DNA from: Prosopocoilus inquinatus
Taxonomy: Eukaryota; Arthropoda; Insecta; Coleoptera; Lucanidae
Assembly (NCBI GenBank): GCA_036172665.1
Contig: CM069874.1
Coordinates: 55,410,707-55,474,706, forward strand
Length of the DNA stretch: 64,000 bases
Direction of reading: 5' to 3'
This document shows positions 89 through 62,237 of the stretch, piece by piece. Position 1 is the first letter of the stretch, and each line of letters begins with the position of its first letter. The position numbers and the translations under genes were made by a program. The notes beneath the pieces are model-generated. The model was not told where the DNA came from and searched no databases. It saw only the letters and a list, made by a program, of their open reading frames with translations.

Positions 89-260
89 AATCAAGAACGA
101 TTTGCACAAAATTTTTCTAAAAACTTTCATTATGCTTTGACAGCAAGCATGACCGCCTTCCGTGGGGGACTTATTAGGAGTAAATCCCGCTTCAATTTGT
201 ATATCCTACTGCAATGTCAGGTCAAAAAGCGATAGTAAGATGTCGCTATTTTATCTGTTT
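1..260 (+). mobile_element. Hammerhead-ribozyme repeat, copy A (cut by window edge)
   Basis: This is the ribozyme block (Y) at 1-125 followed by the X block (cattatgctttgacagc to tattttatctgt) in the same orientation. It shares both blocks with copies at 731, 10656, 35638 and 45489. The left end lies outside the window. Confidence 0.8.
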
Positions 261-730: not shown

Positions 731-930
731 GATAAAATAGCGACATCTTACTATCGCTTTTTGACCTAACATTGCAGTAGGATAGACAAATTGAAGCGGG
801 ATTTGCTCCTAATAAGTCCCCCATGCTACGTCTCTGCTGAAGAAGCCCCAAGCAGGGCTGAAACAGCTGTACAGAGGCTGCTCGAGGTTTTCACTGCAAT
901 TAAAAACGATTTGCACAATTTTTTTTTTTA
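731..930 (+). mobile_element. Hammerhead-ribozyme repeat, copy B (inverted X block, truncated Y block)
   Basis: The X block is on the minus strand (ataaaatagcgacatc to the cccccatg at about 824), followed at once by a Y block on the plus strand that has lost the outer half of helix I. The right end is a T-run after gatttgcaca. The X/Y orientation differs from copy A but matches copies at 10656 and 35638. Confidence 0.7.
825..897 (+). ncRNA. Truncated hammerhead ribozyme, copy B
   Basis: CTGAAGA is at 837-843, stem II AGCCC/GGGCT, GAAA at 860-863, stem III ACAGCTGT and a GTA site at 869-871. Only the inner helix I (CTCTG/CAGAG) can form, because the 5' outer strand is missing. Confidence 0.6.
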
Positions 931-4500: not shown

Positions 4501-4649
4501 GTTCTCAAACGGTTTGATGGTGATGTATTACAGGTTTAAATATTTGCACACAATAAAAGAACACTCTGCATTTTGGACGCTGACTGAGCTTACTTACAAT
4601 AAGTGTTAAATTAGTCACCGAAATTGCAAAACTTAATTATAGTTGACCG

Positions 4650-6171: not shown

Positions 6172-6225
6172 CTGCAAAAAAATACTGTATCAAATTTTAC
6201 ACCCAATTTTGTACTTTTCACTTAC

Positions 6226-8640: not shown

Positions 8641-9970
8641 CTGTAAAAGAACGAAATTTTTTGAGTAACAGAAATCAAGACGTAGTAAAATATTTACAGA
8701 TTAATCAAATTCGCGTTCCAAAATAAATTTTATTTTACACGAATCCGAAATGTAGGAAATCGTGACAATGTTTATTACGTGAAGAGATGCAACTTTTTTT
8801 TAAACGGCATCCCATATTTTTTTCTTTACTTATTTCTATAGAGCATTTTCTTGTGCAGTCGTTGGTATTCAATAAATTTAATTAAAATAGATTAATTTCT
8901 GAGAAAAGAAGAGTGAGTGAAAGAAATGGTACAAGCAAAAGCTCCGTTATTTATTATCTGATTTTAATGAATAAAGTAGTGTTGTTGATAGTCCCTAGAT
9001 TTTTAAAAATTATGAATATTGTAAAAGTAGAGAGATCTTGTAAAGCTTTGGTCTAATGCTGACTGTCGTATCATTAAAATTGACAATTTGGCAGATGATC
9101 AAACATGATCCATTTTTTGCATAAAATTAAAAATAATTCGTAAATACTAAAAATAAGTAAGTACAATGATATATCATTTTTATCGTCTCTTTAAGGGCTA
9201 ATCGAAACTGCAATAAAAAACATAGTGTTCCATTTAAAAAATAATAAGTTAGGTTTGTCACTTATTAAATGAACAACCTGTAGATTTGAAAATAATTTTA
9301 AATTATGAGGAATGAAAACCTACACAATTTTTGTTAAGATATTTTCTTGATAGAATGAATTTAAAGACGCATTTTGGGACTTTTCCAGAGGTTTGGGACA
9401 CCCTGTACATATTGTCGGCATTATCTCCATGTTTAGAATTATTTTTGCAATGGAATCAAGTTCTTTTCATTCTTGTTAAAATCAGGTATTTTACTAGTTT
9501 TCTTTTTAGTAGTCCATTAAAACGTGACCAAGAAGATTCATATTATTAAAAATGACTTTTTTGGAAAAACGTAACCTACACAAATCTTACGATTAGATTA
9601 AAACGCGAAGTTTGGGTCTCCTTTTAGTGAGTTATTTGTGTTCTTTTTGTTATTTTATTAAAACAGCAACCGGTTAGTAACGATTGGAGTCAACTTTGAA
9701 TTTTTTTGTCATCTGCTAGTTGTATAACACGTTATATATAACAATTTGTAAATTTCCGCCTATCAATAAAAAATAGAGTATATGTCTTTTAACTTCTCTG
9801 TAAATTTATTTGCCTTGTTAATATCTTTAGAAACCATTGCCGATACGTTCCCTCATGGAGTTTATAGGGTATCTAAGTTTAAAAAGAGGTGAAAAGACCG
9901 GGCCTTACGAAAATAACGAGCAGATAGCCTGAAAAAGTGAATAAAAGATAAAAAGTTTAGAAGAAACCTC
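8641..9970. other. Intronic DNA with a decayed foldback arm
   Basis: The stretch 9180-9420 (ending ttgggacaccctgtacat) matches, in reverse, 41570-41790 (gtacaggatgtcccaaaaac). Both look like arms of the CAGGRTGT family of elements. The open frame at 9331-9549 lies in this arm and is not a gene. Confidence 0.5.
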
Positions 9971-10560: not shown

Positions 10561-10655
10561 TTGTGAAACCAAATTGCGAGTTAAACGTAGGGTTAGAGAT
10601 AGAGTATGAGCAAATTGGAAATTGCGCGGAAAAATACAAAAACACAAAAGTTATA

Positions 10656-10875
10656 AACAGATAAAACAGCGACATCTTACGATCGCTTTTTGACCTGACA
10701 TTGCAGTAGGATAGACAATTGCAATTGCGAATAAATTGGACAAGTCGTTTTTGTTTGCAGTGGGAATGTTGAGCTACCTCTCTGCTGACGAAGCCCCAAG
10801 CAGGGCTGAAACAGCTGTACAGAGGCTGCTCGAGGTTTTCACTGCAATCAAAAACGATTTGCAACAATTTTTTTT
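10656..10875 (+). mobile_element. Hammerhead-ribozyme repeat, copy C, with 12-bp target duplication
   Basis: It is flanked by ACAAAAGTTATA at 10644-10655 and 10876-10887. A short reversed X block (ataaaacagcgacatc) is followed by the plus-strand Y block. The ends are AACAGATAAAACAGCG on the left and gcaacaa plus a T-run on the right. Confidence 0.8.
10757..10845 (+). ncRNA. Type I hammerhead ribozyme, copy C
   Basis: The core is CTGACGA (10785-10791), so the freely variable position 7 is C here. Stem II AGCCC/GGGCT and GAAA (10808-10811) are intact; the cleavage site is GTA (10817-10819). In helix I one C-G pair has become a U-G wobble (TTGAGC/GCTCGA), so pairing is kept. The outer clamp GCAGTG/CACTGC is intact. 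Confidence 0.78.
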
Positions 10876-10887
10876 ACAAAAGTTATA

Positions 10888-12031: not shown

Positions 12032-15000
12032 CAGGGCCGTGCCGTGCTATGATACAGAGAGGCGGCCGCATCAGGCGGCATCATAAGGGGGCGGCTTAAG
12101 CAGGGATATCAAAATAGAATTTTAAATTTTCAGTAATTAAAAATCTTTAAGCATCGCTTTTCTATATGTTATTCTGATATTGATGTATACGATTTATGAT
12201 TTAACACGTTCCTCTGCCTAAACTTTCGGTACCCTTTGATATCGGATTCTGGAAAAGTGCATTGTTGGCGAGCGCTGGTCGAAAAATGCGCTAAGCCATT
12301 ATTTTTGTTTGTAGTATACCGCGCGGCCGTTCATAAAAGCTGAGGCGGCAATTATCACAAAAGACATTTGCACGTGTTACGTGTTGATAGTTCTTAAAAT
12401 GATTCACAATATTTGACTTTAATGTTAGTTTGTCTCCAGAAGTAGCAAGTTACTTATTATCATTGAAAGTGATTGTGTTGTGGCTCTGCAGCTTCGAATT
12501 AAAAAGGTAGGATTTGCATGGACTGAGTGCATCACACGTTTAAAATGTTTGCCAATGTATGATTATTTAATATTTTTATTAGAGTATGGAACATAAAAGG
12601 AAAAAAATGTCTGGAAGTCAATACAAAAAAAAGCGTTTAAAGAAAGAGGAACAAGAAAAACAGTTAAGCTATGTTATGAAGGAATTCTTGGTACAACAGT
12701 CCTGTTTAGAGGAACCGTCCGCATCCACATCAACAGTAACCACTCTGGATTTGGAAAATAAAAACTCAGTGCCGCTCTAATCAATTCCAGAAGTTGTGGA
12801 AAGAAACCAAGAAATAACACCATGAGAAATTCATCAAGAGCCTGGTAGCAGTGGCAGTGACAGCCAGCTGATTCCTTCTGATCCTGCATTATGGAATCCT
12901 TTCTGCATGTCATCCGAAACTCGTCAAATATTGGTTGAAAGGGGTCCACATCAAATTAAAGAATTCGAGTTTCCTATTAATAAAGGAAGGCGCAGATTTT
13001 CGCCCTCGCATTATTTAAAAGTGTTGAGCAATGGTGAAGTCGTTGAGAGAAGTTGGTTGATTTACTCTGTTACAAATGATGCCGTTTTTTGCTTTTGTTG
13101 TATATTATTTGATAATAATTCGTCTAGTATTAGCGACTGGCCCAAAAAAGGCTATTCTGACTGGGGAAATCTTATAAGAGCTCTCACAATGCACGAAAAG
13201 TCTGTAAATCATAGAAATGCTTTTAGAGCATGGAAAGAATTGGACATTCGATTAAAGCAAAAAAAAAAAAACTATTGACGCTGAATATCAACGAATTATG
13301 GATATGGAAATTCAGCATTGGAGAGGAGTTCTAAAAAGAATTATTTCAATAATTAGACTATTGGCCTCACAATATTTAGCTTTTCGTGGAACAACTGAAC
13401 ATTTGTTTCAGGCTAATAACGGAAACTTCCTAAAATTGGTAGAATTGCTTTCCGAATTTGATCCAATTATGGAAGAACATATCAGGAGAGTTCAACGCGA
13501 GTCTAATAAATGGTCTGTGACTTATCTAAGCAATAATATACAAGATGAATTGATAAATTTGATGGGAAATACAATTTTAAACAAAATTGTCGATGTAACA
13601 AAAATCGCTAAATATTTTTCGATAATGGCAGATTGTACCCCAGACGTAAGTCATATTGAACAGCTATCATTAACAATAAGAGTTGTCGCTTTTAATTCCA
13701 CTCAAGATAAATATGAAATTGAAGAATTCTTTATTGGCTTTTTTGAAGCTAGTGACTCAACCGGAAAGGGTTTGACAGAACTTATTCTAACACATTTGGG
13801 TAAGTTAGGTTTTGACTTAAAGTGGCTTAGAGGGCAAGGCTACGACAACGGAGCTAATATGAAAGGAATAACAAAGGGTGTACAAAATAGAATACTTGAA
13901 AAATATCCAAGGGCGTTTTATGTGCCCTGCGCATGCCATTCTTTAAACCTAGTTGTGAATGATGCAGCATCTTCTACAGAAACAATAACTTTTTTTTCTG
14001 TTGTACAAGAACTTTACACTTTTTTTTCTGGTTCTACAAATATGTTTCACAATTAACTCTAAAACCATTGAGTGCTACTAGGTGGTCAAGTAGAGTAGAC
14101 GCGTTAAGACCTTTACGATTTCAACTTTGCGAAATCTATGATGCATTATTTCATATGATAGAAAACGTCAACATAGATGCAGAAATTAAAGTTAAAGCAA
14201 AAGGGTTAGCAAGAAATATTAAAAATTACAAGTTTCTATGCGGTGTAATTCTTTGGTACGATATTTTATTTGAAATAAATTCAGTCTCGAAACTATTGCA
14301 ATCTGTAAGTATAAATTTGTCAGATTGCGTAAGAATGTTATCAGACACCATACAAAAGGTGAAAAGTTATAGACAATCTGGTTATGAACAAATGAAAATT
14401 GCTGCTAATGAGATTGCACAGAATCTTGAATGCACTACGGAATTTCCTGCCGAAACTGAAGTTAGAGCCAGAAGAAAGAACCGTCAGTTTGACTATGAAG
14501 CTATTGATGAACCCTTAACAGTGGAAAATAAATTTAAAATAAACTTTTTCTATTACATGCTTGACATTACTCTTAATTCTCTGAATGAACGATTCACACT
14601 TCTAGAAACACATAGCAAAAATTTTCAGTTTTTATATGACATTTTCAAACTCAAAGGTACAGATGATAAAACGTTAGAAAATTATTGTAACGGTCTCCAG
14701 TCAATACTTTCGGTCGAAAATGAATCAGACATAAATGCAAGTGATCTTCAAGAAGAATTACGTGATGTGTCTCGCATGCTACCGTATTCTATGAACCCTT
14801 TCGATGTTTTAAATTATTTATCCCAAAATAACTTAATTACTTTGTATCCGAATACTGCTGTAGCTCTGAGAATTTTATTAACACTTCCTGTCTCTGTAGC
14901 TAGTGGAGAAAGAAATTTTTCAAAATTAAAATTAATAAAACATTACTTAAGAAGTTCAATAAGCCAAACAAAACTTAGAAATCTGTCATTAATTTCTATT

Positions 15001-15252
15001 GAATCTACACTGGCTGCCACTCTAGACTACACATTCCTAATTGACGAATTTGATAAAATTAAAGTTAGAAGGGTAAAATTGTAGTAGGTAATTGTAACTA
15101 TTATATTTGTTTAGTTTCCTAAATAAAAATAATATTCGTAAATTTTGTGCAGTTTTTTCTTTAAAATGCAATCGAAGGTTATTAAAAAAAAACATAAAGG
15201 GCGGCATTTCGAAGACTTGCATCATACTGAGAAGATTTACCACACGGTCCTG
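12032..15252 (+). mobile_element. hAT transposon with 8-bp target duplication
   Basis: It is 3221 bp long, flanked by GACATGTG at 12024-12031 and 15253-15260. The terminal inverted repeat starts CAGGGCCGTG on the left and CAGGACCGTG on the right. The 8-bp duplication, CA-start ends and transposase content all fit hAT. The perfect duplication points to a fairly young insertion. Confidence 0.93.
12586..15084 (+). pseudogene. hAT transposase (zinc finger MYM-type 1-like), broken
   Basis: This was the transposase that cut and joined the element. It starts MEHKRKKMSGSQ with a lysine-rich likely nuclear signal. A TTF-type zinc-finger remnant (VFCFCCILF) sits at about 13088, followed by a DUF4371-like catalytic region with MADCTPDVSH and GQGYDNGANMKG (candidate acidic catalytic residues) and CHSLNLVV. 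The C-terminal hAT dimerisation region has SGERNFSKLKLIKHYLR. Breaks: in-frame TAA at 12778 and TGA at 12823, a frameshift in the A-run at about 13262-13272, and another near 14050. It cannot make a whole protein, although most of the sequence remains readable. Zinc-finger MYM1-like hAT proteins are the closest family I recognise. Confidence 0.88.
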
Positions 15253-19653: not shown

Positions 19654-21907
19654 TAGAGAGCGGATTTATATGCGAGTAATTTTGATGAAATATGCGCATA
19701 TATATGCACTAAAAAATGATGAAATATGCACATATATATGCACTAAAAATGGCGAAATATGTGCAAGATAGGCCGAACACTTCAAATAATGCAATAACTG
19801 GTCTACTGTGTTTTATGGGCATTCTTATTCAAATAAAAAACATTATATTTTATACAATTTATTTACATTTATTTGTAAACGCTTATATGAAGGAAGTATG
19901 TATATTATGTATGTACATTATTAAGTAAATATTATAACGACTAAAAAAATCTTCGATTATAATTTACAACAATGTGTTTTTCCAAGTTCTCTACCAGGAA
20001 ATTTTGCCTTTTATCTGACAAAATATTTTTATAAATTGAAAAACTCCTTTCAACATCCACGGCGGTAATTGGGGCATATTTAAAGTGACTCATAGCTGAA
20101 AATTCTACACTTAAGTCAATTTCAAAGTTTCCATTCAAAATTTCGTAAATTTCCTCAAGGGTTTTGAAGCCGCTATTTTTATCTAAAACGGATAAACATT
20201 TTTTATTTACTGAACTGCCGATTTTACCTGGAACTTTTGAAATATTCTCTTTAAATTCTTTAACAATTTTAACGGATTCTATTAAAGACATTTTCGGTTT
20301 TTCTAAATTGTTTATAGTTTGTATTACAAAACTGTAATGCATTTTGATGAAGTTCAGTTGATTTGCCAATGAAGTTTTTGTTACAATATTTTGTGCCTTT
20401 GCAATAGCAGCACTATCTTGGGCATTAAACTCTACAACCAATTCCTTAATTGCTACAAAATGTTCAGCATAAAACATTGCCGCTTCCAACCAAGTTCCTC
20501 ACCTAGTCAACACTGGTTCGGGAGGTAAAGGTACATTCGGCAATTTTTCCCTGTACAACTGAACTCGTAGGGGACTTTTGACAAATATTTTTTTAATGGT
20601 ACTAATTAGTAGATTTACATCAGAAAATTCACATCTAATATGTTCAGCTACTCTGTTACATTCATGAGCTAAACAACTCACGTGAACTAAATTTTTATAA
20701 ATTGTTTTAAATTGCTGCCCGGCTTTAACCATGTAAGGGGCAGCATCTGATACCATAAGTAAAATTTTTTCAGTAGGAACTACATTAGGTGAGAAAAATT
20801 TCATAAAACATTCATTAATAGATCTTAAAATACTTAAATGATTAGTTTTGTCTAACTGTGTACAGGCTATTAAATAAGATTCACTAGGTTTATCTTCCCG
20901 CAAAGACCCTATTAACAAATTTACAATGTAACGCCCACAAGAATTAGTAGTTTCATCCACAATAAAATAAATATATTGATTTTCTACGATTTTCTTGACT
21001 TCTTTTAGAGTATCGTTGTAGATGCGAGGCACGTAATTTTTTCTTAACGTACTTTCATCGGGAACATTTTTCTTGGTATATTTTTCCAAAAAACTTTTAA
21101 AAATAGAATTTTGCAGTTTTTTCAAAGGTATGTTTGCACAAATCATCGCCTCGCATAAATCAGCATTAAATTCTTGTTGTTCATTAGATGAAGTCATCAA
21201 CGACGGTCCACTTTCTAAGGGTAATTGAAATGTTTTCGATTCATTCATCTTCTTGCATTTTGACTTGTGTAGTTCTGTCTCGACATGTGTGACCGAAAAT
21301 TTTCGTTGGGTTGGTATTTACAACAAGAACTTGAATTTTTTTAAACTGTCTGAACTTTCAATATTCAAGAACCAAGCAAATATTTACCTAAGGAGGAAGA
21401 AAACAAACTTAAAACTTACCATTTTACTACAGGCTTTACAGAATACGCTTCCATTGGTGCAAGCAAGCTCGGGATAGCTTCTGATCCAGGAATTAACCAG
21501 GTTCGAATTGTCTTTCGGCATATTGCACTTCTCACAAACAAAAATACTTTTACGGAAGAACTAAACGTTCGCAGCAATAACCGACTAATAATCCGTGAAG
21601 AAGTGATGAAACAATATTGCAAACATGAACGCCCCACCGCATCGTTAAGAAAGTACTTGGAAATCCCTAATTCACTACTTGGAAAATTCTGGCTGCCTAA
21701 GCCCAAAAAGGGTGCAAACTAGACCCTAATTAATGCAACATGTTCTGACGAATTAAGAATTCAGGAAAAAATTTACTCACTTCGACACAAATTCTTTCAA
21801 ATATGCATATATATGCACGTTTTTAAGAAATATGCGAAAATTGAACAAAATGCTCAAATATGCAAAATATGCATGCAATATGCATTTAGCATAGAATCCG
21901 CTCTTTA
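19654..21907 (-). mobile_element. hAT transposon (CGGBP1-like) nested in the mariner
   Basis: It is 2254 bp, flanked by GTGATAAA at 19646-19653 and 21908-21915. The ends read TAGAGAGCGGATT on the left and, reversed, TAAAGAGCGGATT on the right. Multiple aaatatgca-type subterminal motifs lie at both ends (19685-19760, 21798-21895), likely transposase binding sites. Removing it rejoins the mariner frame at SPDLSPND. Confidence 0.92.
19941..21521 (-). pseudogene. hAT transposase (CGG-triplet-repeat-binding-protein-1-like)
   Basis: A short first exon, 21521-21420, starts MPKDNSNLVNSWIRSYPELA and holds the first cysteines of a BED-type finger (VFCKACSKM), ending in donor AAATG|GTAAGT. The next exon starts near 21345 (KFSVTHVETELHKSKCKKMNES), with a frameshift near its start. 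It then runs through YFIVDETTNSCGRYIVNLL (candidate catalytic D), MVSDAAPYMVKAG and CLAHECNRVAE to the C-terminal VDVERSFSIYKNILSDKR. A single TGA at 20499 replaces a probable tryptophan (TR-stop-GTW) in an otherwise continuous frame to 19941. Only a few changes break it. Confidence 0.85.
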
Positions 21908-22255
21908 GTGATAAATCAGGTGAATATGGACAATGAGTCATTAATTCAACATTTTTGTTGGACAAGAAATCAACTGTTTGACGGGTTGAGTGAGACCTGG
22001 CATTGTTATGATGGAGAATAATTCGTCGATTTCGATTGTTTCTTCTTATTTGAGCGATGACTTCCGGCAAACAAATTGTAGTATACCAATCAGCATTCAT
22101 GGTTTTTCGATCCTCTAAAGCCACGGTTGCTACATGTCCAGTTAAACCAAAGAAACAAGCAATCATTTGCTTCGCAGCACTGCGTGAACGGACAACTTTT
22201 GTTGGTCTTGGTTCATTTTGAAATACCCAAACGGTAGGTCGTTGTTTACTGGTGT

Positions 22256-23750
22256 ATACCCGTGTCAACTTAAAATATCTAAAGTGATTCCAGTCTATAA
22301 AAAAAAGGGCAACCGACTCGAGGCATCTAGCTACAGACCTATCGCTCTTCAAAACCAACTCGGGAAAATATTTGAGGAAGCATTCAACATACGGCTGACG
22401 TCCTACCTGAAGAAACATAGTATACTTAATAACTCACAAAATGGCTTTCGAAAGGGAAAATCTACCATAACTGCGATTGCCGATACATATAACTTTATTC
22501 TTAACGAACTAAACAACAAAAATAAGATTTTCATCCTCTTCTGTGACTTAAGCCGAGCTTTTGACTCCGTCAACCATACATTATTATGCACAAATTTGGA
22601 ACAGATTGGTATTAGAGGAACTGCAAATAAATGGGTAAATTCCTACCTCACAGGAAGAACGCAACAAGTAGCCATACAAGAACACTTATCAACTCCTTTG
22701 TGTGTTGATGTGGGAGTACCTCAAGGCTCAATACTCGGTCCCATTCTGTTTTCCATCTTTATTAACGATCTCACAGAATTGTGTCCTTCACCTTCAAAGA
22801 CCATCATATACGCCGACGACACCACCTTCATTATTTCCGCCAGCAACACTTATGACGCTATCTCACAATCAAACAACACTCTAGCCGAAATGAAGAATTG
22901 GTGCTTCAATAGCGGTCTGAAGTTAAACACCTCTAAAACACAAGTGATGCCCATCGTTACAAAAAACGTAAACGTTGACGTCTCCCCATTAGTGAAATGC
23001 GGAAGTACATCGATAACATGTGTCTCTAACTTTAAATTCCTGGGCCTGCATATTGACAATAAACTTACCTGGAAATATCACGTGCAACAACTTGAAAATA
23101 AATTAAGTGGAAATGTATTCTTAATATACCGTTTATGTAAAACTGTCACACCCAGTATATTACGAACCATGTATTTCTCCTTAATTCAGACTGTTATCTC
23201 CTATGGCATTTTATTTTGGGGTAGTTGTTCAACCGCCATAAATATATTCCGTATTCAGAGGAAGGTCATCCGAATATTGGCGGGCACCGATTTTCGCGCG
23301 AGCTGCAGAGATCTTTTTGTGAGCTTAAATATTATGACAGTTCCTTCACTACATATATATGAATCTATTCTGTATGCGCGGTCCATTGAGAGCAACACAG
23401 AAAAAAATAGTGATTACCACAGCTACATAACGCGTAACTGCGAGGATCTTCGGTTACCATATCATCGTCTGGCTATAGGACAAACTGGCCCCGTTTTCAC
23501 TGGCTTACTTTATTTAAGGAAAATCAAAAAAGTGTGGAAGAATAATGTTCCAATTTCGGATTCAGAATTTAATAAGAAACTTAAAAAGACTTTAATATCA
23601 AACCCTTTGTACTCAGCGGACGAATTTATGGAACTATGAATGTAGTGTGATTTGTTTACTGTACCACCTCTTGACATGTCAATAGCCACTGTACATTTTA
23701 CTGTTCTGGCATTATGACAAATAAATTATTATTATTATTATTATTATAAG
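22256..23750 (+). mobile_element. 5'-truncated non-LTR retrotransposon (CR1/Jockey-like), nearly intact RT end
   Basis: One open frame to 23639 encodes the reverse transcriptase. It starts inside the RT (LKISKVIPVYKKKG, SYRPIALQNQLGK). Palm motifs follow: FCDLSRAFDSVNH (catalytic D), VPQGSILGPILFSIFINDL and IIYADDTTFI (the YADD box), then FLGLHIDNKLTW. A C-terminal tail ends in EFMEL stop. The 3' end carries aataaa and an (ATT)n tail at 23726-23748. The endonuclease and ORF1 are missing. The open frame starting at 22218 includes mariner-derived codons, so the true LINE start is near 22256. The clade call is tentative. Confidence 0.88.
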
Positions 23751-33005: not shown

Positions 33006-33258
33006 ATAGATAACTCACTTATGGAACGTGCTGTACATGTGGAAATAATTTGCTGAGATAGAACTCATTGCAGGTGGTAACTTTTGATCGCGAATATTTT
33101 ACAAAACTATTAATTTCCCAAGAGGAAAACTTATGTCATACCACTTTAGCAATCATAATCATAATTATAATCACAACCATGACTTTTATTAATATTTTAC
33201 ATCTGTTGTTGATGTAAGACAAGTCAAGTACACTTTAAAATAATGGAGTAGTGACTAA
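33006..33258. other. Short spacer, nothing recognised
   Basis: Contains an AT-rich aatcataatcataattataatca repeat-like stretch. Confidence 0.4.
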
Positions 33259-33433
33259 CCCCCTTATTCTATAACTCGTAACGACATCGTTAGATGACGA
33301 AAATCGTTAAGTGGCTTGTTTTGACCAATCAGGTCTTAGATACATAGCTTTTCTATGCATTGATTGGTCAAAAAATGTCACTTAACGATTTTCGTTATCC
33401 AACGATGTCGTTATGAGTTATAGAATAAGGGGG
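33259..33433. mobile_element. Hairpin MITE, 175 bp
   Basis: Near-perfect inverted repeats from both ends (CCCCCTTATTCTATAACTC; AACGACATCGTT; GATGACGAAAATCGTTAAGT; GACCAATCA) meet at a short loop. A TA lies on each side, with one extra A on the left. Confidence 0.8.
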
Positions 33434-34495
33434 TACGTCATCTGAAAAGATCTGTTCACTTCAATTTGAACTAATCACATTTTTGGCTTATGCTGCATAC
33501 CTAATTATGCAAATTCTCTGATAGTAGCATGTTGGCAGCAGGTTTGACAGTCTTGTGTGAAATGTGGTGAAACAATTACTATAGTTATTAATGACAATAA
33601 GAAGATAAAAACGGATGGTTACCAAAATCGTATAGATCTCAGCTTCCCAGGCTTCCGGAGACCTCAGAAAATGGACAGCAATGTCATCCTCCTTCAAGAT
33701 TACCATACAAATTTCATTTCGACATTATCTAATGCCTTTTTGCAACTTTCACTATTCATTTTAATTATAAAACCTTATGCTTGCCTGTTAATACTACGAG
33801 TGCGTTAACATGAAACTGGTAAAAGAATACTAAACCTTGCAGGAAACTCTGAAAATTGTTAATTAACACTAACACTTTTGTAATTCAACATTTTAATAAA
33901 ATTTGCAAACGTAATACTGGAAAATTGCATTGTTTGTTGGTGATGCCCTAGGGGCAATAACTTTTTCCAATTAAAATGCCTGTGACTTTTCCGTTACAGT
34001 AGATTTTACATGCAAATCGCACCGGGTCTTTTACTTTGCAATTACACGGAAAATTGACTGTAATGATAGAGGAAGCGCTGGTCTTTCTACGAGTTGAATA
34101 AGAAACTTTTTGTGCTATTCAGAGCGTAGTAGCATTAGCTACTTGGAATAAATTATTATTACATTAGCTTATTTTACATGAATAGATTTAATGAATATGC
34201 ATATCTTAACTCAAGAAGACCTGGAAGGGTAATTATTTATTGTTAGTGCAATTATTAAAATCCGATCTCATACTTATAGCATGTTACTTAATGTTACGTA
34301 CTTATTTTAATAAGTGATTCTTGGACCAATTTTAAGTTGAAAAGTTTAATAAACGTATGTATATCCTAGAATGCTTGGTTTTTGATAAACAGGGTGCTAC
34401 AGTTTTTGTGTTTTTGCAGTTATCAGAAATCTAGAACACAGTTTCGGGTTATTTACAAAAGTAAAATGAAAATGTCTACTTCATATTTCTGTATA
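33434..34495. other. Intronic DNA, nothing recognised
   Basis: The open frames at 33488-33808 overlap on both strands and have no domain. Confidence 0.45.
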
Positions 34496-35637
34496 CAGGA
34501 TGACTGGTAAGTCGTCGTATTTCGTTGAGGGAGTGTTAGTAGAGCTCATTTGCAATTGATTTGACCATATTATGCGTTACACAAAATGCAATGGTTAATG
34601 AGATATTTTAATTTTTATGCTCTCCTTAGAAATACGCTCCCTACTAACAATTGTTTAACATTACTCAGAGAGTATAAAAGGTTTTCTTAATATTTATGTT
34701 TTCCTGGTTAAACTAAATAATAGTACGTACTACGCAACAAACATTAAGTTAAAAACTTTAATTGTTTGAAATACAATGGCTGAAAAGACACATCTCTAAA
34801 AAAATCCAACCTACTTGAACAGTCATTCTGACTTATTTCCAAAATTTGATAATACAATCAACTTGCAAATTATTCTAAAAACTTTTCTGATTTATTGCCT
34901 TTCGAATGAGGGTATTAAGTTTTTGTAAAAATCTGTATGCATCACACTTCCATCAAATAATAATTATTAAGTGCGGGATACAATATTCATTGTTTTCAAT
35001 TTAAGAGGACAACAGCTTCTCAAGGAATCGGCTTCAGTTAAAAACCGAAAAATTCAAACTTTGAGCTTACACTGGAATAATTTTGGTTAATTTCCAATTT
35101 TGTGAAGTCACGGGACTTCTCAACTGAAGTTTATAGAGAACTAATACTTAAGAGAAGCTGGTATCCTCTTAAATTGAAAACAATAAATATTCTATCTCGT
35201 ACTTAATAATTATTATTTGATGGAAGTATGATGTATACAGATTTTTACTCAAACTTAATACCCTCAATCGAGAGGCAATAACACAGAGATTTTTTTAGAA
35301 TAATTTGCAAGTTGATTGTATTACCAAATTTTGGAAATAAGTTAGAATGAATGTTCAAGTAGGTTGGATTTTCTTTTAGAGAAGTGTCTTTTCAGCCATT
35401 GTATTTCAAACTTATTAAAGTTTTTAACTTAATGTTTGTTGCGTAGTATGTACTACTAACATGAATTCCGTGGAATCCTGTTGCTATAAAGAATGATGAG
35501 CCATAAACTGCGCAATTATAATGGGCATAACTATGAAAAAAATTATAATGAATGCATGGGCAGTTACAATTTCATTATAAATTGTCTAACCAGAAAAAGA
35601 TAAATATTAAGAAAACCTTTTATACTCTCTGAGTAAT

Positions 35638-35923
35638 TTTAGAAAAATTTTGTGCAAATCGTTTTTGATTGCAGTGAAAACCTCGAGCAGCCTCTGGACA
35701 GCTGTTTCAGCCCTGCTTGGGGCTTCTTCAGCAGAGACGTAGCTCGACATTCCCACTGCAGACCAAAAACGACTTGCCCAATTTATTCGCAAAATAATGC
35801 TTTGACAGCAAGCATGGCCACCTTGCATGGGGGACTTATTAGGAGCAAATCCCGCTTCAATTTGTCTATCCTACTGCAATGTCAGGTCAAAAAGCGGTAG
35901 TAAGATGTCACTATTTTATCTGT
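35638..35923 (-). mobile_element. Hammerhead-ribozyme repeat, copy D, with 12-bp target duplication
   Basis: It is 286 bp, flanked by TCTCTGAGTAAT at 35626-35637 and 35924-35935. The unbroken opposite foldback arm (near 34665) shows the empty site. The Y block is on the minus strand, the X block on the plus strand. Ends: tttagaaaaattttgtgc on the left and tcactattttatctgt on the right. Confidence 0.88.
35671..35759 (-). ncRNA. Type I hammerhead ribozyme, copy D (best copy)
   Basis: On the minus strand: outer clamp GCAGTG (35759-35754) with CACTGC (35676-35671); TCGAGC/GCTCGA; internal loop TACGT/GCT; CTCTG/CAGAG; core CTGAAGA (35731-35725); stem II AGCCC with loop CAAGCA and GGGCT; GAAA; ACAGCTGT; GTC with the cut expected between 35697 and 35696. 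Outside the clamp a further 14 pairs form (GCAAGTCGTTTTTG with CAAAAACGATTTGC). Every conserved hammerhead core base is present. Natural type I hammerheads in animals also have a very short stem III. Cleavage itself is inferred. Confidence 0.85.
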
Positions 35924-36104
35924 TCTCTGAGTAATGTTAAATAAATGTTAGTAGGGAGCGTATTTCTAAGGAAAACACAAAAATTAAAATATCTCATTAA
36001 CTATTGCATTTTGTGTAATGCAAAATTTGGTCAAATCAATTGCAAATGAGCTCTACTACCACGCCCTCAAAGGAATACGTTGACTTACCAGTCGTCCTGT
36101 ATAT

Positions 36105-38813: not shown

Positions 38814-39416
38814 CAGGATGTTCTTTTACTGTGTGCAAATAGAAAACAACCTCAGTATAAGTACACGAAATGCTACCTTCTGCGGGTATTTTTTTTGTGG
38901 CTACCGTATCATAGCCAAAAAATTTCGGTTGGACCACTTGTTTGAAACTGCTGAAATGTGCGAGAAAGATAGAAAGGTCAACTTCGCCTTCCTCTCGGTA
39001 TAAACACGCCAACCTAAACCGATTTTCAACGCAGCGTTTCGTACTAATAATCACTGATATAGTTTATTAATTATTTTATTTAAAATTTTAATTCACTTAA
39101 TTTAAAAATACTTAAACTTGTAATTATTTGCAGTGAAGTTAATTTAAACTGTAAGCGGCTGATTTACCTGATTTACGGCGTTCGTGCTCGAGATCAAGTG
39201 AAATACTAACCCTGCCCTACTTCGGCTTCGGATCATAATTGAAGAGGCGGCCGCTTTCCATTTTTAGCTATGTCAGCAGTTCTCAAACTGTTTAGTCAAA
39301 ATCTGTCTTTCTCGAAAACTATTAAATTTTTGTTAAGAACATATGAGTTCAATCATTGCCGTTTATGGTGATATGTTACAGGTCTAAATATTTGCACAAA
39401 GGAAAAGAACACCCTG
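38814..39416. mobile_element. TA-flanked MITE, CAGGRTGTTC family, copy 1
   Basis: The 603-bp element has TA on both sides (38812-38813, 39417-39418). Terminal repeat: CAGGATGTTCTTTTACTGTG on the left, reversed CAGGGTGTTCTTTTCC on the right, then tgtgcaaata. The interior includes gtcaacttcgccttcctctc and gaggcggccgc. No open frame of note. Related copies are at 47063-47944 and 57149-58224. Confidence 0.8.
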
Positions 39417-40050
39417 TATATTAAACAGGTAATTTCTGGTGCTGTGACTGCAATAGACCCTCTAGCTTTTATCTTTCCTTCAAAATTCGTTCTGTAAACT
39501 AGAAAATGCAAAAAGCTCATTTGGAACGAAATGATAGAGATCCAAACATCGTTTTAGGGTAAGTTCGCGCTGACACAAAGAAACACGCATTCAAATGTTT
39601 GTGTTCATATCCGAGCTTCGAGTATAAGCGCTCACATAAGCGATTGTAGCAATTAGAATTAAACGGGATATTCTTCTGCGCGCAGAAAAAGCTATCGATC
39701 ATCACAGCTTCGCTCTAAACTTACCCTTAGTGTGAATTCGAGTGTGCGCTCTGAGCAAAAGTGTGAGGAAGAGCTACTGCGCTTCAGTGTATGTAAGAGT
39801 GAGAAAAAGCAGCACTCCAAGCGTTCCAAGCGTCAACTCGCATTCGCCCTCAGATTTAAGGTGACCATACGTCCCAATTTTGGCGGGACAATTCCGATTT
39901 TTACAATTTGTCCCGCGTTCCGCGGAATTTTAAAAACGCTTTTTGTAAAGAATACACTTTTTGCCATTTGTAAAATTTATGTTGTAGATTGAATTATAAA
40001 ATGTAAAAAAAGTTATTAACTGGTTAATTATTCTGTTAGTAATAACCAAC
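39417..40050. repeat. Second member of the CCCGATTTTG-type repeat
   Basis: From about 39860 (gtcccaattttggcgggac, gttgtagattgaattat) this matches 9975-10150, with the distal part reaching about 40200. The left part (39417-39860) shows nothing clear. Confidence 0.45.
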
Positions 40051-40199: not shown

Positions 40200-40964
40200 A
40201 CCTAAGGCTTGTTTGGTTTACAGGAGTTGGGCAAAAAAAATCTCTTTAAAGATATAATTAAATCAAATTGAAGAAATAACAATCGATACTTTGCTCTAAT
40301 TGGTGTGCAAAAATATCATCCCACTCTCTCTCTTTTTCTCTCTCTGAAAAGTAATTTGTACCACGCGATCAACGGAATTTATAGTTAGGGCAGGCTGTAC
40401 TATTTCCAAAAACTTTTCAACACAGGCTTACAGTTTGAAGTTGAAAATTTTTAGTGTCAGAATTGTGACATTTATTATTTTTTAATGATTAATAATAAAC
40501 GAATTTGTCCTGCAGAACCGCCCCTAATGTTCTAAAAGAGAGGTTTGAACCAGCATCCGTACAACATAAAATAACAAAATAAAGATTGTATAAAGTACGA
40601 GCATAACCTCAAATATAACAACTGTCAACTTATTATTTTTTTTCTCATTGTATCAAACCACACAGCATAAAATAGCACCAATCGCAGCCTGCTCTAATTA
40701 TGAATTCCATCGATCACACGGTATTTTGGCATTTCATTGGTGAGTACTCTTTAAAAGCAAAGTATTTTGTTGTTTGGGTTGGGTTGGGTTGTCCCGCCTT
40801 GTCGGAATTAAAATCTGGTCGCCTTACTTTAGATGCTGAAAATTCAAATTTACACGTTAAGTTCGCATGTAACTGACACAGGATCGAATCCATGTTTAAT
40901 TGCTTGTTTCTCAAACGTAACATCAAATTTATTAATAAGTTATTAAAATTTAAGTAGCTACATC
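40200..40964. other. Intronic DNA, nothing firm
   Basis: A gagtactctttaaaagcaaag..gttgtcccgccttgtcggaattaaaatctgg block (about 40738-40818) repeats 40110-40195. No gene. Confidence 0.4.
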
Positions 40965-41335
40965 CTGATATTGCTTTTTGACCTGATATTGTATCAGAAT
41001 TGACCAATAGAAGGTATTCGCTACATAATAAGTTAAAGTTAGCCCGTATAAGTAGGCTGTGCTTGCTGTCAAAGCATAATAAAAGTTCTAAAAATCGTGT
41101 TGCAAAACGTCTTTTATTGCAGTGGATCCATCAAGCATCCTCTGTACAGCTGTTTGGCCCTATTTGATGCCTCGTCAGCAGAAGCGCAGCTCGTGAGTTC
41201 GCACATGCGAATATCCTCTGAGAAATCGTTTTAACTTGCAGTGGAACTCTCGAGCTACTTTTCTGCTGAGCAGATCCTCCCAAATAAGGCTGAAACAAGC
41301 AAACAAAATTTTTAATAAGTTATAGTTATTTTTTT
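40965..41335 (-). mobile_element. Diverged hammerhead-ribozyme repeat, copies G and H, head to head
   Basis: A reversed X block (ctttttgacctgatattg, gcttgctgtcaaagcataat) leads to a minus-strand Y block at 41119-41190. A second, partial Y block on the plus strand follows at 41238-41300 (gcagtgg..ctcgagctac..ctgctga..ggctgaaaca). The layout echoes the dimer at 45489-46169 but is older. Confidence 0.65.
41119..41190 (-). ncRNA. Decayed hammerhead ribozyme, copy G
   Basis: CTGACGA (41178-41172), the short stem III ACAGCTGT and a GTA site remain, and inner helix I still pairs. The base that should be G12 of GAAA is C and stem II is eroded, so it is probably inactive. Confidence 0.5.
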
Positions 41336-44361: not shown

Positions 44362-45659
44362 CAGCGTGGAAACTAAGTAGCGGATAAAATCCATAACTCC
44401 GTTAATATTTGTAATAAAGCAAAAATCTAAAAGGGGTATAGCGATTCAAATTACAGCGCATAAGAAGAAGTATATTTTGAGATATTTTCATGAATTTTTT
44501 TTTAAGTTATGACGTCATCAAGATCTTTTTTAAATGACAACCTATATTTTTTATTTTTTATTTCGGTGGGATTCTTTAACCTGCTTTCAACAGTATAAAA
44601 TTTTGGATCGATTACATAACAAAAAATTCAAGAAAAACGGCCATAAAAGTTTAATTGTAAAGTTGAAGAAATAAACAGAACATCTAGTTAGCTAGGTTTA
44701 AAACGAAACAAAATTAAGGTGTAAATAAACAAAATTTGATTTTGACAGTCATTGAAATCACAATAAATGTTCAAACTGACGACCATGCACCAACTGACAA
44801 TACCCAAGACGCTCATAAAATTCATTTATTACATTTTGAATAGTTTGAGGTGTTATTAACCTACACTCCTGTCGAATTCTTTCTTTAAGATCGTCTAAGT
44901 TGTTAGGTCTATTTTTATACACCTTGCTTTTTAAATACCCCCATAGAAAAAAGTCTAATGGCGTTAGATCAGGGGGTCTAGCTGGCCATTCCATTGGACC
45001 TCTTCTTCCTATCCATCTACCTGGGAACATCTCGTCCAAATAACGTCGCACATCAACTGCGTAGTGTGGCGGAGCACCGTCGTGTTGCATCCAAATGTTA
45101 TTGTTTGGTACGTCACAGTCATTTTCATTAGGAAATAATATCGCCAATGCAGGTACTAATTCGAATTGTAAGAAGTGTAAATATTTCTCACCAGTTAAAT
45201 TACCTTCGATAAAGAATAGACCTAAAATTTTGTCACCGACAATTCCTGTCCATACGTTGAGCTTCTGGGGATGTTGAGTATGAGCTTCTTGCATCCAGTG
45301 GGGATTTTCCCTAGACCAATATCGACAATTATGTCTGTTAACAGTTCCATGTAAAGTAAAACTTGCCTCATCAGAAAAAATTATACGCTGCGACAACATT
45401 GGATCACGATTGCAAATTTCCAACATTTCTTCACAAAATTCTTGTCTATGATCGTAGTCAGTTTCTGCTAACTCATGGACTAATTTTAAACATATAAAAT
45501 AGCGACATCTTACTATCACTTTTTGACCTAACATTGCAGTAGGATAGACAAATTGAAGCGGGATTTGCTCCTAATGAGTCCCCCATGCAAGGCGGCCATG
45601 CTTGCTGTCAAAGCATAATGAAAGATTTTAGAAAAATTTTGTGCAAATCGTTTTTGATT

Positions 45660-45748
45660 GCAGTGAGAATCTCGAGCAGCCTCTGGACAGCTGTTTCAGC
45701 CTTGCTTGGGGATTCTTCAGCAGAAACGTAGCTCGACATTCCCACTGC
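45660..45748 (-). ncRNA. Type I hammerhead ribozyme, copy E
   Basis: Core CTGAAGA (45720-45714), GAAA, ACAGCTGT and GTC (cut between 45686 and 45685) are all present. Two changes weaken stem II (ATCCC/AGGCT). Changes in helix I turn U-G and G-U wobbles into U-A and G-C pairs. Confidence 0.72.
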
Positions 45749-46048
45749 AGACCAAAAACGACTTGCCCAATTTATTCGCAATTGCGATGTAAGAATGATG
45801 AACATATAAAATAGGTTCTCACTGCAATCAAAAACGATTTGCACAAAATTTTTCTAAAATCTTTCATTATGCTTTGACAGCAAGCATGGCCGCCTTGCAT
45901 GGGGGACTCATTAGGAGCAAATCCCGCTTCAATTTGTCTATCTTACTGTAATGTTAGGTCAAAAAGCGATAGTAAGATGTCGCTATTTTATCTGTTCATC
46001 ATTCTTACATCGCAATTGCGAATAAATTGGGCAAGTCGTTTTTGGTCT

Positions 46049-46137
46049 GCAGTGGGAATGTCGAGCTACGTTTCTGCTGAAGAATCCCCAAGCAAGGCTG
46101 AAACAGCTGTCCAGAGGCTGCTCGAGGTTCTCACTGC
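46049..46137 (+). ncRNA. Type I hammerhead ribozyme, copy F
   Basis: Core CTGAAGA (46077-46083), GAAA, ACAGCTGT and GTC (cut between 46111 and 46112). It shares the two stem II changes with copy E, so both halves of the dimer came from one template. The outer clamp GCAGTG/CACTGC is intact. Confidence 0.74.
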
Positions 46138-47062
46138 AATCAAAAACGATTTGCACAAAATTTTTCTAAGGACTAATTTTACTCTATACGGAGGAAACTT
46201 TTGCATTTTTAAAAGTTTCAGTACCGAGGTATGGCTCAGGTTGTGCTTTAAAGCAATGTCTCGACTAGTCGAATGCGGATTATTTTCTATTTCTAGTAAA
46301 ATATCAAGCTGCACATCGTCAATTAATTTTGTCTTAGGGTGGCCAGTTTTTGGAAGGTCTTTCACAATACCGTAATTTCGAAATTTATTTTCTATTCTGC
46401 TGACTGTGGATTGACTTATTTGCTGATCAGGATATTTGTCTATAAAAAGTCGACACACCTCTTGATGAGTTCTAATTCGATCGCCATACCCAATCATCAT
46501 TAGAACTTCAATTCTTTGTTTTTCAGTCAGCAACCCCATTTTGGTAAAAGGTTTTTAATAATTAGTATAACTCCTACTATCCACAGGGAATAAAAATACT
46601 CACTTTATTGTGATAGGTATTTACAAGTTCTTGTCAATCAAACAAATTTTGTTTGTTTTACACCTAGCTAACCAGATATTCTGTTAATTTCTTCAACTTT
46701 ACAATTAAACTTTTATGGCCGTTTTTCTTGAATTTTTTGATATGTAATCGATTCAAAATTTTATACTGTTGAAAGTAGGTTAAAAAAACCCACCGAAATA
46801 AAAAATAAAAAATATAGGTTGTCATTTAAAAAAAATCTTGATGACGTCATAACTTAAAAAAAAATCATGAAAATATCTCAAAATATACTTCTTCTTATGC
46901 GCTGTAATTTGAATCGCTATACCCCTTTTAGATTTTTGCTTTATTACAAATATTAACGGAGTTATGGATTTTATCCGCTACTTAGTTTCCACGCTGTATA
47001 AGCAAGCAAGCATCTGTGTGTGGTGAATGATTTATTGCAAGCGTAATTCTTTTTGTATTACA

Positions 47063-47944
47063 CAGGCTGTTCTTTTACTGTATGCAAATAAAAAAACCTC
47101 AGTCTAAGTACACGAAATGCTACCTTCTGCGGATATTTTTTAGTGGCTACTACACCTGTTTGGAACTGCTGAAATGTGCGAGAAAAATAGGAAGGACAAC
47201 TTCGCCTTCCTCTCGGTACAAAGACGCCCACCGATGTCGCACTCAATTTTCAATGCTGCGTTTCGTAATAATAATCGCTGATATCGTTCACTAATTATTT
47301 TCTTTAAAATTTTAATTCACTGAGCGAAGAATTATGTTTTACGATGAATAAATTTAAAATTTATGCACCAATTAGGCAAGCGCGTTAAAAATGTTCTTCC
47401 CTCACCCTTTTACGTAAATAAACTTTTACTGTAATCTCGCTGCTAGCTATGAAAGTATTACTACTTACGGTCCATAGAAAAAAAAGTAAATTTTTATAAG
47501 TCTATTAAAAATAATATGGGATGAGAAATTACAATTTGTTTGTACCACGCTTTTAATTTGTTCGGCAATTACGAACCGCAGCTTTTTGAATTGCACTAGA
47601 TTTTAATTCAAAAATACTTAAACTTGTAATTACTTGCAGTGAAGTTTATTTAAATTGTAAACGTTTTGACTGACCAGCTGATCGGAGCGGCTAATTTACG
47701 TAATTCGTGCTCACGATCAAGTGAAATACTGACTCTGCCCTACTTCGGCTTCGGGTCATAACTGAGGCGGCCGCGTTCCACTTTCAGTTATGCCAGCAGT
47801 TCTCAAACTGTTTAGTGAAAATCTGCCACTGCATTTTTCTCGAAAACTATTAAATTTTAGTTAAGAACATATGAATTCAATCGTTGCCATTTATGGTGAT
47901 ATATTACAGATTTAAATATTTACACACAGTAAAATAACACCCTG
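47063..47944. mobile_element. TA-flanked MITE, CAGGRTGTTC family, copy 2
   Basis: The ends are CAGGCTGTTCTTTTACTGTA and reversed CAGGGTGTTATTTTACTGTG. It shares gaaatgctaccttctgcgg, cttcgccttcctctcgg and gaggcggccgcgttcc with 38814-39416, and has extra internal sequence (about 47340-47640). Confidence 0.78.
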
Positions 47945-48189
47945 TATCTTTTGTAGTTTTACTTATAGGCTCTTAATTTTGCCCTAACAATATTTCACTT
48001 TTAGTTAGTTTAGTTCATTTAGTTCTTGTAATCAGTCTCACATACGGTCGTATGTAGACTGTCATGCCTACTACAGTACAGATCATTTTCTTTTGTGTGA
48101 CGAATACACTATGTGCGCCGGCTTAAAGCCCCTACAGAAGTATACCGTAAGACAATCTTGCATAATAGAAGGCAAGAAGTTGTTAAAAT

Positions 48190-59700: not shown

Positions 59701-62237
59701 CATAGGTTCTCAAACTAATTTCGTCTACCGCCCACTTTGAGAATCAATTATTTTCTAGCGCCCCCTAAAATTTTTAACTTTACTACATCTTAAAAATCAC
59801 AATCGCAATCATTACTTTAATAACTAGTTAAATTATAGCCTGCCGAGTCTTCTCTTGTTTCTGAGGTCAAACTTACATTTTAAATGAGACTGTTCTAATG
59901 AGAGCAATAAATTTATAAATAATATTTAGCAAAACTTTTATTCAAATTAAAACAAATATTCCAATTAAATTTTAAAACTAATCTAATGTGAAGGATGAAT
60001 CTGATGATTTTTAACAAGTTTGTTAATATCAGCCTCGAATTTAGTCAAAAACAGCCGTAAGTCACCGTGTTCAGTAACATGCAAACGATTTCTCTTTTTA
60101 GTTAGCAACGTTGTCACAGCACTAAATCCACGTTCACACAAATACGACGATGGGAATGCTATCAAAAATCGTTGAACAATTGACCACAATCCAGGGAACA
60201 ATTGTGGATTGGCTTTTGTAACCAAAATTCTTGGTAGCCATTTTTGAATTTGATTTTTATTTCCTCGTTTGTTGTCAGTTCTATAAGTTCTTCTTCCAGC
60301 TGGGATGATCCTGCTGTGTTGACATTTGAAAAAGGATCAACACCCAATCTGGTATTTCCAATTTTAAAATGTCCTGGAATCGTTCTTTGAAATCACTATG
60401 GAGGTTCTCCAAATGTTGGCAGTAAACAAGCAAGTCGTTGTTGTTGAAAGATGTTGCTGATAAATTAGGGAAATTGTGAAACTCAAGTCTGCCGATATTT
60501 TTCTTGTGTAAGAGCAATTTGGCTACGAAAGCAGCAACGACATTTTTTGTTTTAATCAAGTTCAAGTCGTCACCTTGAAGTTGGAGATTGATATCATTAA
60601 ACAATTTATACAGATCTGTCAAGTACGCAATATCATTCTTTGATGTGATGAGGCTGTCGTGCAACTCTGTGTGTTTGTTTTCCAAGAACTCTATCACAGA
60701 GTCAAACAGATTGTAAAATCGAGTGAAACAAGTACCTCTTGATAGCCAACGCACTTCTGTGTGAAGCAGCAATCGGTTGAAATCTTCGTCATTAGCAACA
60801 CAAAGCTGATTAAATAATCTGTCATTTAAAGAGCTGTTTCGGATTGTATTGACTGCTTTGATGACATGTTGCAGTGATTGAAACAGTCGTTCATTCAAAT
60901 TTCTCGCAACCAAATGTTGTCGATGAATAACGCAATGTACAGCGAGCACATCTGGAACTTTATTTTTTAAGTACGCTATGAAACCTTTGTGACGCCCTGT
61001 CATAGCCGGAGCGCCATCCGTAGCAGCTGATATAATATTCTTCAAGGGAATTTCTTTCTCATCACAAAACTTTTCCAGTGTATTAAATATGGTTTCTCCT
61101 TTTGTATCTGTCTCTAAATTTCTAGCAAATAATAGTTCTTGACATATTTTCTCATCTTTAATAAACCTCACGTATGACATCAACAATGCTTCATTACTTG
61201 GTAAAGTGGACTCATCCAACTGAATTGAGAATTGATTAGTCTTCAGATGATTACACAATGACTCTTCAATATTTTCAGCCATCTCATCAATTCGTCTTTG
61301 CACAGAACTGTTGCTTAAAGGAATTTTTCGGATAATATCTACCGCTGGTTTATGAAGAACAGTTGTTATTACTTCTTTTATTGCTGGTAAAATTAGGTCT
61401 TCTCCAATAGTGTGTGATTTGCCTGTTTGAGCAATTAACAAAGAGATATTGTACGAAGCTCGAAGTCCGTCATCGTCTTGCTTAGAAGCCGCTGAAAAAA
61501 GTTTTGATACAGTTGGCTGAGCTATATACTTCTTTTCCATGTCTTGAAAATAGGCCACATTCTTGTCTTTCTTATCTGAATGCATTTTATTCAAATGATC
61601 TTGTAGCCTAGAAGGCTTCATCGCTTCATTCGAAAACGTTTTTTGACAAACAAGGCACATAGGCGAAGATGGATTTGTGGGATTTTCAATAAATCCGTAT
61701 TTTATATATTCCGTATTGTATTGCCGTCTCTTCTTTTTTGCTTCAGACATGGTTTTGTCGTCACAAAAACGTAAGTAAAAAATCGAGTTTAAAAAAATTG
61801 CTAACGATTACGCGTTGAGAGCGAAAACGCTAATGAAAATAAAAGAAACATACGCGCTTTTATATAGATGCAATAATGCAAGTTAGAACAAGTATCGATG
61901 ATTCTGCTGCTTCATACAGGATTGCACAAATCGCGTTGTTTAACAAAAACTTGTCAAAACTTGATTGCTCACGAGCTACCTACGAAAGCCATGATAAATT
62001 ATTTATTTAATACAATCAAAGAGAGCAGGAACGTAATAATCGATGTAGTGTAGTAGACTAGTAGGTAGGTTTTGATTTTAGTTAATATACTTTAATTAAA
62101 ATATTAAAAAAACACAAATCAGCCATCGCCCTCCTAAACCGCTTCAAACCCCCCAATTTTCTCTGTGCCCTTTACCGCCCCCCTGTAGGGCTCTAGTGCC
62201 CACAAGGGGTCTTTATCGCCCACTTTGAGAAAGACTG
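59701..62237 (-). mobile_element. hAT transposon with 8-bp target duplication
   Basis: It is 2537 bp, flanked by CACTAAGG at 59693-59700 and 62238-62245. The ends are CATAGGTTCTCAAACT on the left and reversed CAGTCTTTCTCAAAGTGGG on the right. A second cgcccactttgaga-type match lies inside each end. Confidence 0.92.
59983..61750 (-). pseudogene. hAT transposase (ZBED5/FAM200-like), nearly intact
   Basis: It starts MSEAKKKRRQYNTEYIKYGF with a basic nuclear signal. A BED-type zinc finger follows (CLVCQKTFSNEAMKPSRLQDHLNKMH: C..C..H..H). FSIQLDESTLPSNE and AATDGAPAMTGRHKG carry candidate catalytic acids, then AVHCVIHRQHLVARN and EVRWLSRGTCFTRFY. The C-terminal hAT dimerisation region is LIAFPSSYLCERGFSAVTTLLTKKRNRL. 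The 489-codon frame shifts near 60340 and again near 60225, so the dimerisation end is out of frame. Such proteins have been domesticated in vertebrates; here the intact ends and duplication show an ordinary transposon. Confidence 0.88.

Follow-up and report, generated by a model that had tools for sequence, protein, structure and literature searches.

Gene content of the window and a dispersed hammerhead family

The window, by which we mean the whole 64-kb stretch of beetle DNA analysed here, contains the following features besides the ribozyme-bearing elements described below.

4466-4574, 39244-39422 and 47764-47950: three copies of a further dispersed repeat family (families D12, D13, D15, D16)
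6190-8700 (-): host gene with a fasciclin domain
12826-15084 (+): hAT-like transposase region
19941-21317 (-): hAT-like transposase region
22188-23639 (+): reverse transcriptase ORF
33230-33435: palindromic stretch
59983-61807 (-): hAT-like transposase region

The best named relatives of the fasciclin-domain gene are proteins of the scarab beetles Holotrichia, Oryctes and Trypoxylus (52-54% identity over about half of the query; the unnamed top match has 53%), in agreement with the insect host assumed in the original prediction. The hAT-like regions were recognised by the Pfam families zf-C17orf113, DUF4371, DUF659 and Dimer_Tnp_hAT, the match at 59983-61807 having an E-value of only 0.0026, below its cutoff. 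The reverse transcriptase at 22188-23639 is the only such match in ORFs of at least 110 aa; LINE-1 ORF2 and R2 are among its best solved relatives, and the best 120 of its 5963 relatives carry PF00078, with the GIY-YIG accession in none of those 120. Being LINE/R2-like by its best solved relatives, it was rejected as a missing Penelope-like element (PLE). The palindromic stretch gave sub-threshold Rfam matches to plant microRNAs, including MIR1520 on both strands; it looks like a foldback or MITE element and is unrelated to the ribozyme family by the tests made.

The original prediction described seven copies of a dispersed repeat built around a complete type I hammerhead ribozyme. All seven, with the ribozyme on the plus strand at 1-88, 825-897, 10757-10845 and 46049-46137 and on the minus strand at 35671-35759, 41119-41190 and 45660-45748, are homologous as judged by a BLAST search with 35661-35775 as query, which recovered the six further copies at 76.7-97.6% identity, and also detected a partial eighth copy at 41223-41297 and two short fragments. 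Six sites in the window, every one of them among the seven named copies, satisfy a strict type I descriptor (5-bp stem I, CUGANGA, stem II of at least 4 pairs with at most 1 mismatch, GAAA, a stem III opening with A15.1-U16.1, and H17). Any match to this descriptor occurred in 1 of 300 first-order Markov random windows, a figure that gives the chance of the motif occurring at all, the six sites being homologous and not six independent matches. The description as complete thus holds for six copies but not for 41119-41190, where GAAA reads CAAA and G12 is lost. The cut triplets are those foreseen, GUC in four copies (1-88, 35671, 45660 and 46049) and GUA in three (825, 10757 and 41119). A relaxed scan for other hammerheads, in which stem III was left free, recovered only four known copies (0 in 100 random windows), and exact-pattern ribozyme scans gave no match in viral contigs (two patterns) or prokaryotic genome contigs (one pattern), collections outside the insects. 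At the level of sequence the type I motif is secure and its membership of a dispersed family supported; hammerhead activity is predicted from it.

The Rfam model Hammerhead_1 (RF00163; model length 45, gathering score 34 bits) was aligned to slices of three of the seven copies. It matched over its full length (1-45 of 45) in each, with 25.8 bits at 35691-35737 (-) (E 8.9e-5), 20.7 bits at 46071-46117 (+) (E 0.0063) and 20.3 bits at 10779-10825 (+) (E 0.0066), these E-values referring to about 100-150 bases only. The Rfam match expected for the 35671 copy is therefore present as a full-length alignment, but neither it nor the other two sliced copies reached the gathering score, and a search of the whole 64 kb gave no Rfam hammerhead at the gathering score and none at E<=10.

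The prediction that the copies fold into a hammerhead likewise stood in part: the structure forms when it is imposed, but in none of the six copies folded is it the unconstrained monomer minimum free energy (MFE) structure, above which it lies by 1.3 to 10.6 kcal/mol, on energies that leave loop-loop and other tertiary contacts out of account. Stem II has five of its five pairs in four copies and three of five in the 45660 and 46049 copies, both of which belong to the same element (E45 below); the 46049 copy is part of a strong hairpin (z -5.3). In six of the seven copies the stem III segment ACAGCUGU is palindromic, which would allow an 8-bp stem III formed jointly by two ribozymes. In the 35671 copy, but in none of the three others tested, this double hammerhead has the same energy as the dimer MFE (1/4). 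Hammerheads with a weak stem III acting as dimers have been published for amphibian retrozymes (PMC7229834) and, reportedly, for PLE hammerheads.

Structure of the elements and of the 312-nt unit

The sample from this one window comprises six elements, five with both ends and three of these sharp at both ends. Their arms are numbered on a unit whose reference is the E45 A-arm, 45813-46169 (+), with arm coordinates taken from a two-segment fit anchored to the ends of each element.

1-259 (+): E1, truncated at the window edge; ribozyme 1-88 followed by unit sequence to unit 184 (base 259, the BLAST and local alignment edge)
727-824 (-): E727 B-arm, unit 87-184 approximately; outer end placed by eye; target duplication absent
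825-926 (+): E727 A-arm, about unit 253-355; ribozyme 825-897, core 832-876, GUA; outer end by eye
10644-10655 (left) and 10876-10887 (right): E10 12-bp target duplication, ACAAAAGTTATA
10656-10720 (-): E10 B-arm, unit 119-184
10721-10875 (+): E10 A-arm, unit 200-356; ribozyme 10757-10845, core 10780-10824, GUA; T run at end
35626-35637 (left) and 35924-35935 (right): E35 12-bp target duplication, TCTCTGAGTAAT
35638-35793 (-, ribozyme sense): E35 A-arm, unit 203-358; ends at site A (unit 46)
35692-35736 (-): core of the hammerhead in the reference copy, spanning stem I to stem I'; cut predicted between 35697 and 35696; stem II 5/5; GUC
35794-35923 (+, sense): E35 B-arm, unit 54-183; ends at site B
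40932-40943 (left) and 41312-41323 (right): E41 12-bp target duplication, TTAATAAGTTAT
40944-41193 (-): E41 B-arm, older, about unit 250-498; ribozyme 41119-41190, CAAA for GAAA
41205-41311 (+): E41 A-arm, older, from about unit 193; alignment ends at unit 293 inside the ribozyme
44758-46554 (-): host gene interrupted by E45, a 367-codon open frame without the element and one copy of its duplication
45477-45488 (left) and 46170-46181 (right): E45 12-bp target duplication, GGACTAATTTTA; the insertion splits the open frame
45489-45812 (-): E45 B-arm, unit 173-496, more than one turn of 312 nt; holds ribozyme 45660-45748
45813-46169 (+): E45 A-arm, unit 1-357, longer than one turn; holds ribozyme 46049-46137

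The unit has a period of 312 nt, positions 1-45 coming back at 313-357 in 45813-46170, a GC content of 42% and a predicted ribozyme cut after position 299. Folded in silico as a circle it reaches -98.8 kcal/mol, and 0 of 100 mononucleotide shuffles were as stable. The ORF that covers the unit has no Pfam domain, and a protein search that reached only proteins of about 90-290 aa gave two candidate relatives of this frame, neither at E<=10. That the family is retrozyme-like, as had been proposed, is borne out by this closed unit without a recognisable gene: it corresponds to the metazoan retrozyme as defined by a type I hammerhead in a unit of about 170-400 nt that lacks an ORF, with an open frame of about 44 codons present. 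This frame (MSSYVSAEE..., 45878-46375, +) runs through the ribozyme and is frameshifted in copy 1.

In all five two-ended elements the two arms are arranged head to head, with the sense strand reading outward. Their outer ends recur: in the anchored fit, site B lies at unit 184, 183 and 184 and site A at unit 44, 46 and 45 in E10, E35 and E45, respectively, the three elements whose ends are fixed by target duplications. An unanchored local alignment gave the same ends, save for the E10 A-end, which became 41 plus three T, and BLAST ran 10-14 bases past the duplication-defined B-ends of E10 and E45. The other two elements are less exact. The E727 ends at 184 and 355 were set by eye, local BLAST edges being unit 191 and 353 (=41); the E41 B-end is at 186 only in the fit forced to the element end, local alignment halting at 176, and the 3' part of its A-arm could not be placed. 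The two end sites are 139 nt apart, which makes a one-sided extension. The inner join of the arms falls at varying unit points across the elements, with an ambiguity of 1-2 bases in four of them and of 11 bases in E41, the latter reflecting poor alignment.

Target duplications and an interrupted gene

Duplications of 12 bp flank four of the five two-ended elements (E10, E35, E45 and E41), and E727 has no clear one. They were sought over 85-base stretches, and in a chance test that allowed 3 bases of slack and skipped near pairs, a 12-mer was shared by 3 of 200,000 random site pairs. The E41 12-mer is AT-rich and has one further occurrence in the window, at 4773.

Deletion of E45 (681 bp) together with one copy of its duplication restores 367 open codons. 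The interrupted gene matches Pfam helix-turn-helix and DUF4817 on its N-terminal part and nothing on the remainder; by inspection it is a transposase. Near 54.8 kb lies a frameshifted relative of this gene, and its alignment spans the E45 junction; the score of 74 compares with at most 47 among 200 shuffles.

Evidence on the RNA template

The predicted ribozyme cut site is crossed by six of the ten arms, namely the A-arms of E10, E35, E45 and E727 and the B-arms of E45 and E41, while the remaining three B-arms cover other parts of the unit, and the E41 A-arm ends inside the ribozyme. No inner arm end coincides with the cut site (0/10, the E41 values being approximate). Since arms cross the cut and none ends there on its inner side, the templates would not have been cut monomers, but rather circular RNAs or uncut multimers.

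The two arms of E45 are 324-326 and 357 nt long, in both cases more than one turn of the 312-nt unit. They differ at six aligned places, which correspond to five unit positions; an A at unit 180 is private to the B-arm and present at both of its ends at a spacing of 312 nt, C being found in the five other places with that stretch. On the simplest reading, two RNAs served as templates for E45, and each of them was a circle or a homogeneous tandem multimer. The arms of E45 and of E41 overlap on the unit, and those of E10, E35 and E727 have no template position in common, as if two copies of a single RNA, begun at separate points, had been extended until they met. Although the E45 arms are longer than one unit, two complete direct-repeat hammerheads occur in none of the two-ended elements of the 64-kb window, and hence none of these would be able to release a unit circle alone.

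Discussion

Our analysis suggests that the family is probably a non-autonomous animal retrozyme mobilised by the enzyme of a PLE. The 312-nt unit, with its one type I hammerhead, would be transcribed as a multimer and cut by the ribozyme acting as a monomer or a dimer, and the product may be circularised by a host ligase, as in published animal retrozymes. Either this circle or the uncut multimer would then serve as template for the reverse transcriptase/endonuclease of a PLE located elsewhere in the genome. A staggered cut in the target would give rise to the 12-bp duplication seen in four of the five elements, and copying would begin at two internal points of the RNA, at unit 43-46 and unit 183-184, which lie 56-59 and 196-197 nt, respectively, beyond the ribozyme cut. 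The recurrent end points are observed; we propose that the two target strands prime one start each, and joining of the two copies at a variable internal point would yield the head-to-head structure found in the insertions. We make no claim of a resemblance between the start motifs ATTTTTCT and ATTTTATCT, which are of low complexity.

A layout like that of PLE insertions, which the original prediction did not describe, is seen here in the inversion of all five elements, the extension on one side and the 12-bp target site duplication (TSD) of four of five. Fixed internal starts on both strands, as read from DNA ends and not from an enzyme assay, are present in E10, E35 and E45 and less exact in E41 and E727. 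Against the retrozyme/PLE reading stand the Rfam scores below cutoff, the non-hammerhead MFE structures and the broken stem II of E45. Among its 26 ORFs of at least 110 aa the window supplies no candidate enzyme: none matches GIY-YIG, the single reverse transcriptase is LINE/R2-like, and the complete units of E45 hold no autonomous-PLE ORF (reverse transcriptase plus GIY-YIG).

Much of this arrangement has a counterpart in the green anole PLE (PMC11167929). The purified protein cuts and extends both target strands, and copying begins at two adjacent internal sites downstream of the hammerhead, the stretch between them forming the 'tail'; the start site is the same for both strands (PMC11167929). 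Hammerhead mutants leave insertion unchanged, unprocessed RNA is the main substrate, and the ribozyme cleaves only when the protein is present (PMC11167929). These results favour an uncut multimer over a circle as template, and they speak against any requirement for the ribozyme, as well as against each strand having a start of its own. For rotifer Penelopes, PMC3846280 describes an inverted pseudo-LTR (pLTR), a one-sided tail of 31 bp and TSDs of 8-10 bp, some elements having no TSD, as well as pLTRs that mobilise a host gene in trans; the inversions are attributed there, by the authors' preference, to self-priming on an antisense template, a source that is also compatible with the present data.

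The beetle family thus shares with Penelope/Poseidon-type PLEs a hammerhead upstream of two internal reverse transcription starts, inverted arms and a one-sided extension (PMC11167929, PMC3846280). A short target duplication is common to both, of 8-10 bp or absent in the PLEs described and of 12 bp in all four beetle elements that have one. The extension differs, however, with 139 nt between the starts as opposed to a PLE tail of 30-40 bp, and unlike PLEs the beetle family has no reverse transcriptase or GIY-YIG ORF. A more specific proposal, which we regard as tentative and somewhat doubtful, is the following: a retrozyme circle would be inserted by the PLE through obligate two-site priming, each start being used by one cut target strand and the copies converging until they meet (E10, E35 and E727), longer elements such as E45 would represent two circles read round more than once, and the PLE 'tail' would record a separate start site for the second strand.

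A retrozyme need not be invoked if the copies are remnants of the pLTR of an autonomous PLE, with the ORF in longer copies elsewhere, an explanation that we consider unlikely. PLE pLTRs do carry hammerheads, occur inverted and have short TSDs (PMC3846280, PMC11167929), and the phase of the frame of about 44 codons relative to GAA-AC is that of the PLE ORF in PMC11167929, an agreement to be expected by chance one time in three. It is possible that this frame is a relic of a PLE start region, although in so small a sample we do not claim that it is coding. Both E45 arms, however, traverse a complete unit and re-enter it with no PLE ORF between, which indicates that the inserted RNA would itself have been a 312-nt circle or multimer, and the unit-covering frame found no protein relative at E<=10 within the range of proteins searched.

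Mobilisation of a SINE-like element by a LINE, with inversion by twin priming, appears improbable. Twin priming also produces inverted junctions, and a LINE/R2-like reverse transcriptase is encoded in the window at 22188-23639. In twin priming the second start is not known to be fixed, whereas here both starts recur within a few bases in the three well-preserved elements; moreover, no poly-A tail is found at the element ends and all five elements are inverted. A chance resemblance to a hammerhead in the long hairpin of a DNA transposon of the foldback or MITE type is less credible still. The 46049 copy has its strong hairpin and E45 resembles a large inverted repeat, but E10, E35 and E45 lack terminal inverted repeats (in an ungapped comparison 10, 9 and 7 of their 25 terminal bases match, respectively), the arm joins vary, and the descriptor matched in only 1 of 300 random windows. 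We therefore rank both the LINE and the foldback explanations below mobilisation of a retrozyme by a PLE.

The proposed connection between PLEs and retrozymes has precedents. Animal retrozymes are described as type I hammerhead units of 170-400 nt, with circular RNA shown in three species, and retrozyme-like repeats in insects are already mentioned in general terms (PMC7229834). PLEs have been called a 'strong candidate' for moving animal retrozymes on the grounds of their type I hammerheads, tandem occurrence and coexistence (PMC7229834, PMC7761336), and a review of December 2024 still treats the link as a proposal (PMC11722881). The likeness of the beetle family to metazoan non-LTR retrozymes extends to the type I hammerhead, a length (312 nt) that falls in the published span of 170-400 nt, a GC content below 50%, the lack of a recognisable gene and a circle self-paired in silico (PMC7229834). 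Published metazoan retrozymes, in contrast, are described as tandem repeats of dimers or more and have been shown as circular RNA (PMC7229834), whereas the five two-ended beetle elements are all head to head. Plant LTR retrozymes resemble the family in having a ribozyme-bounded RNA that is thought to be a retrotransposition template, but they contain type III hammerheads, form circles of 600-800 nt and have LTRs with PBS and PPT and 4-bp duplications, as opposed to type I, 312 nt and 12 bp here (PMC7229834). The pDo500 hammerheads of Dolichopoda cave crickets are likewise insect hammerheads in repetitive DNA, but of a satellite family, unlike the dispersed insertions with target duplications of the beetle (PMC2837043).

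Among the titles and abstract openings listed in searches of a literature with few subscription papers and without Repbase, there was no beetle retrozyme and no PLE footprint on a retrozyme; the family may be undescribed, as the original prediction supposed. If the reading proposed here is true, these copies bear a physical footprint linking PLEs and animal retrozymes, and indicate that circular or uncut multimeric RNA was the template. The predicted start points are precise, which makes the idea directly testable in beetle genomes, in RNA-seq data and with purified PLE protein.

At the left edge of the window, the ribozymes of E1 and E727 (1-926) point the same way; 809 nt separate their cut sites, and the B ends of the two elements enclose about 470 bp of other sequence. 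E1 and E727 may be two insertions or, by analogy with rotifer pLTRs, one composite with captured DNA.
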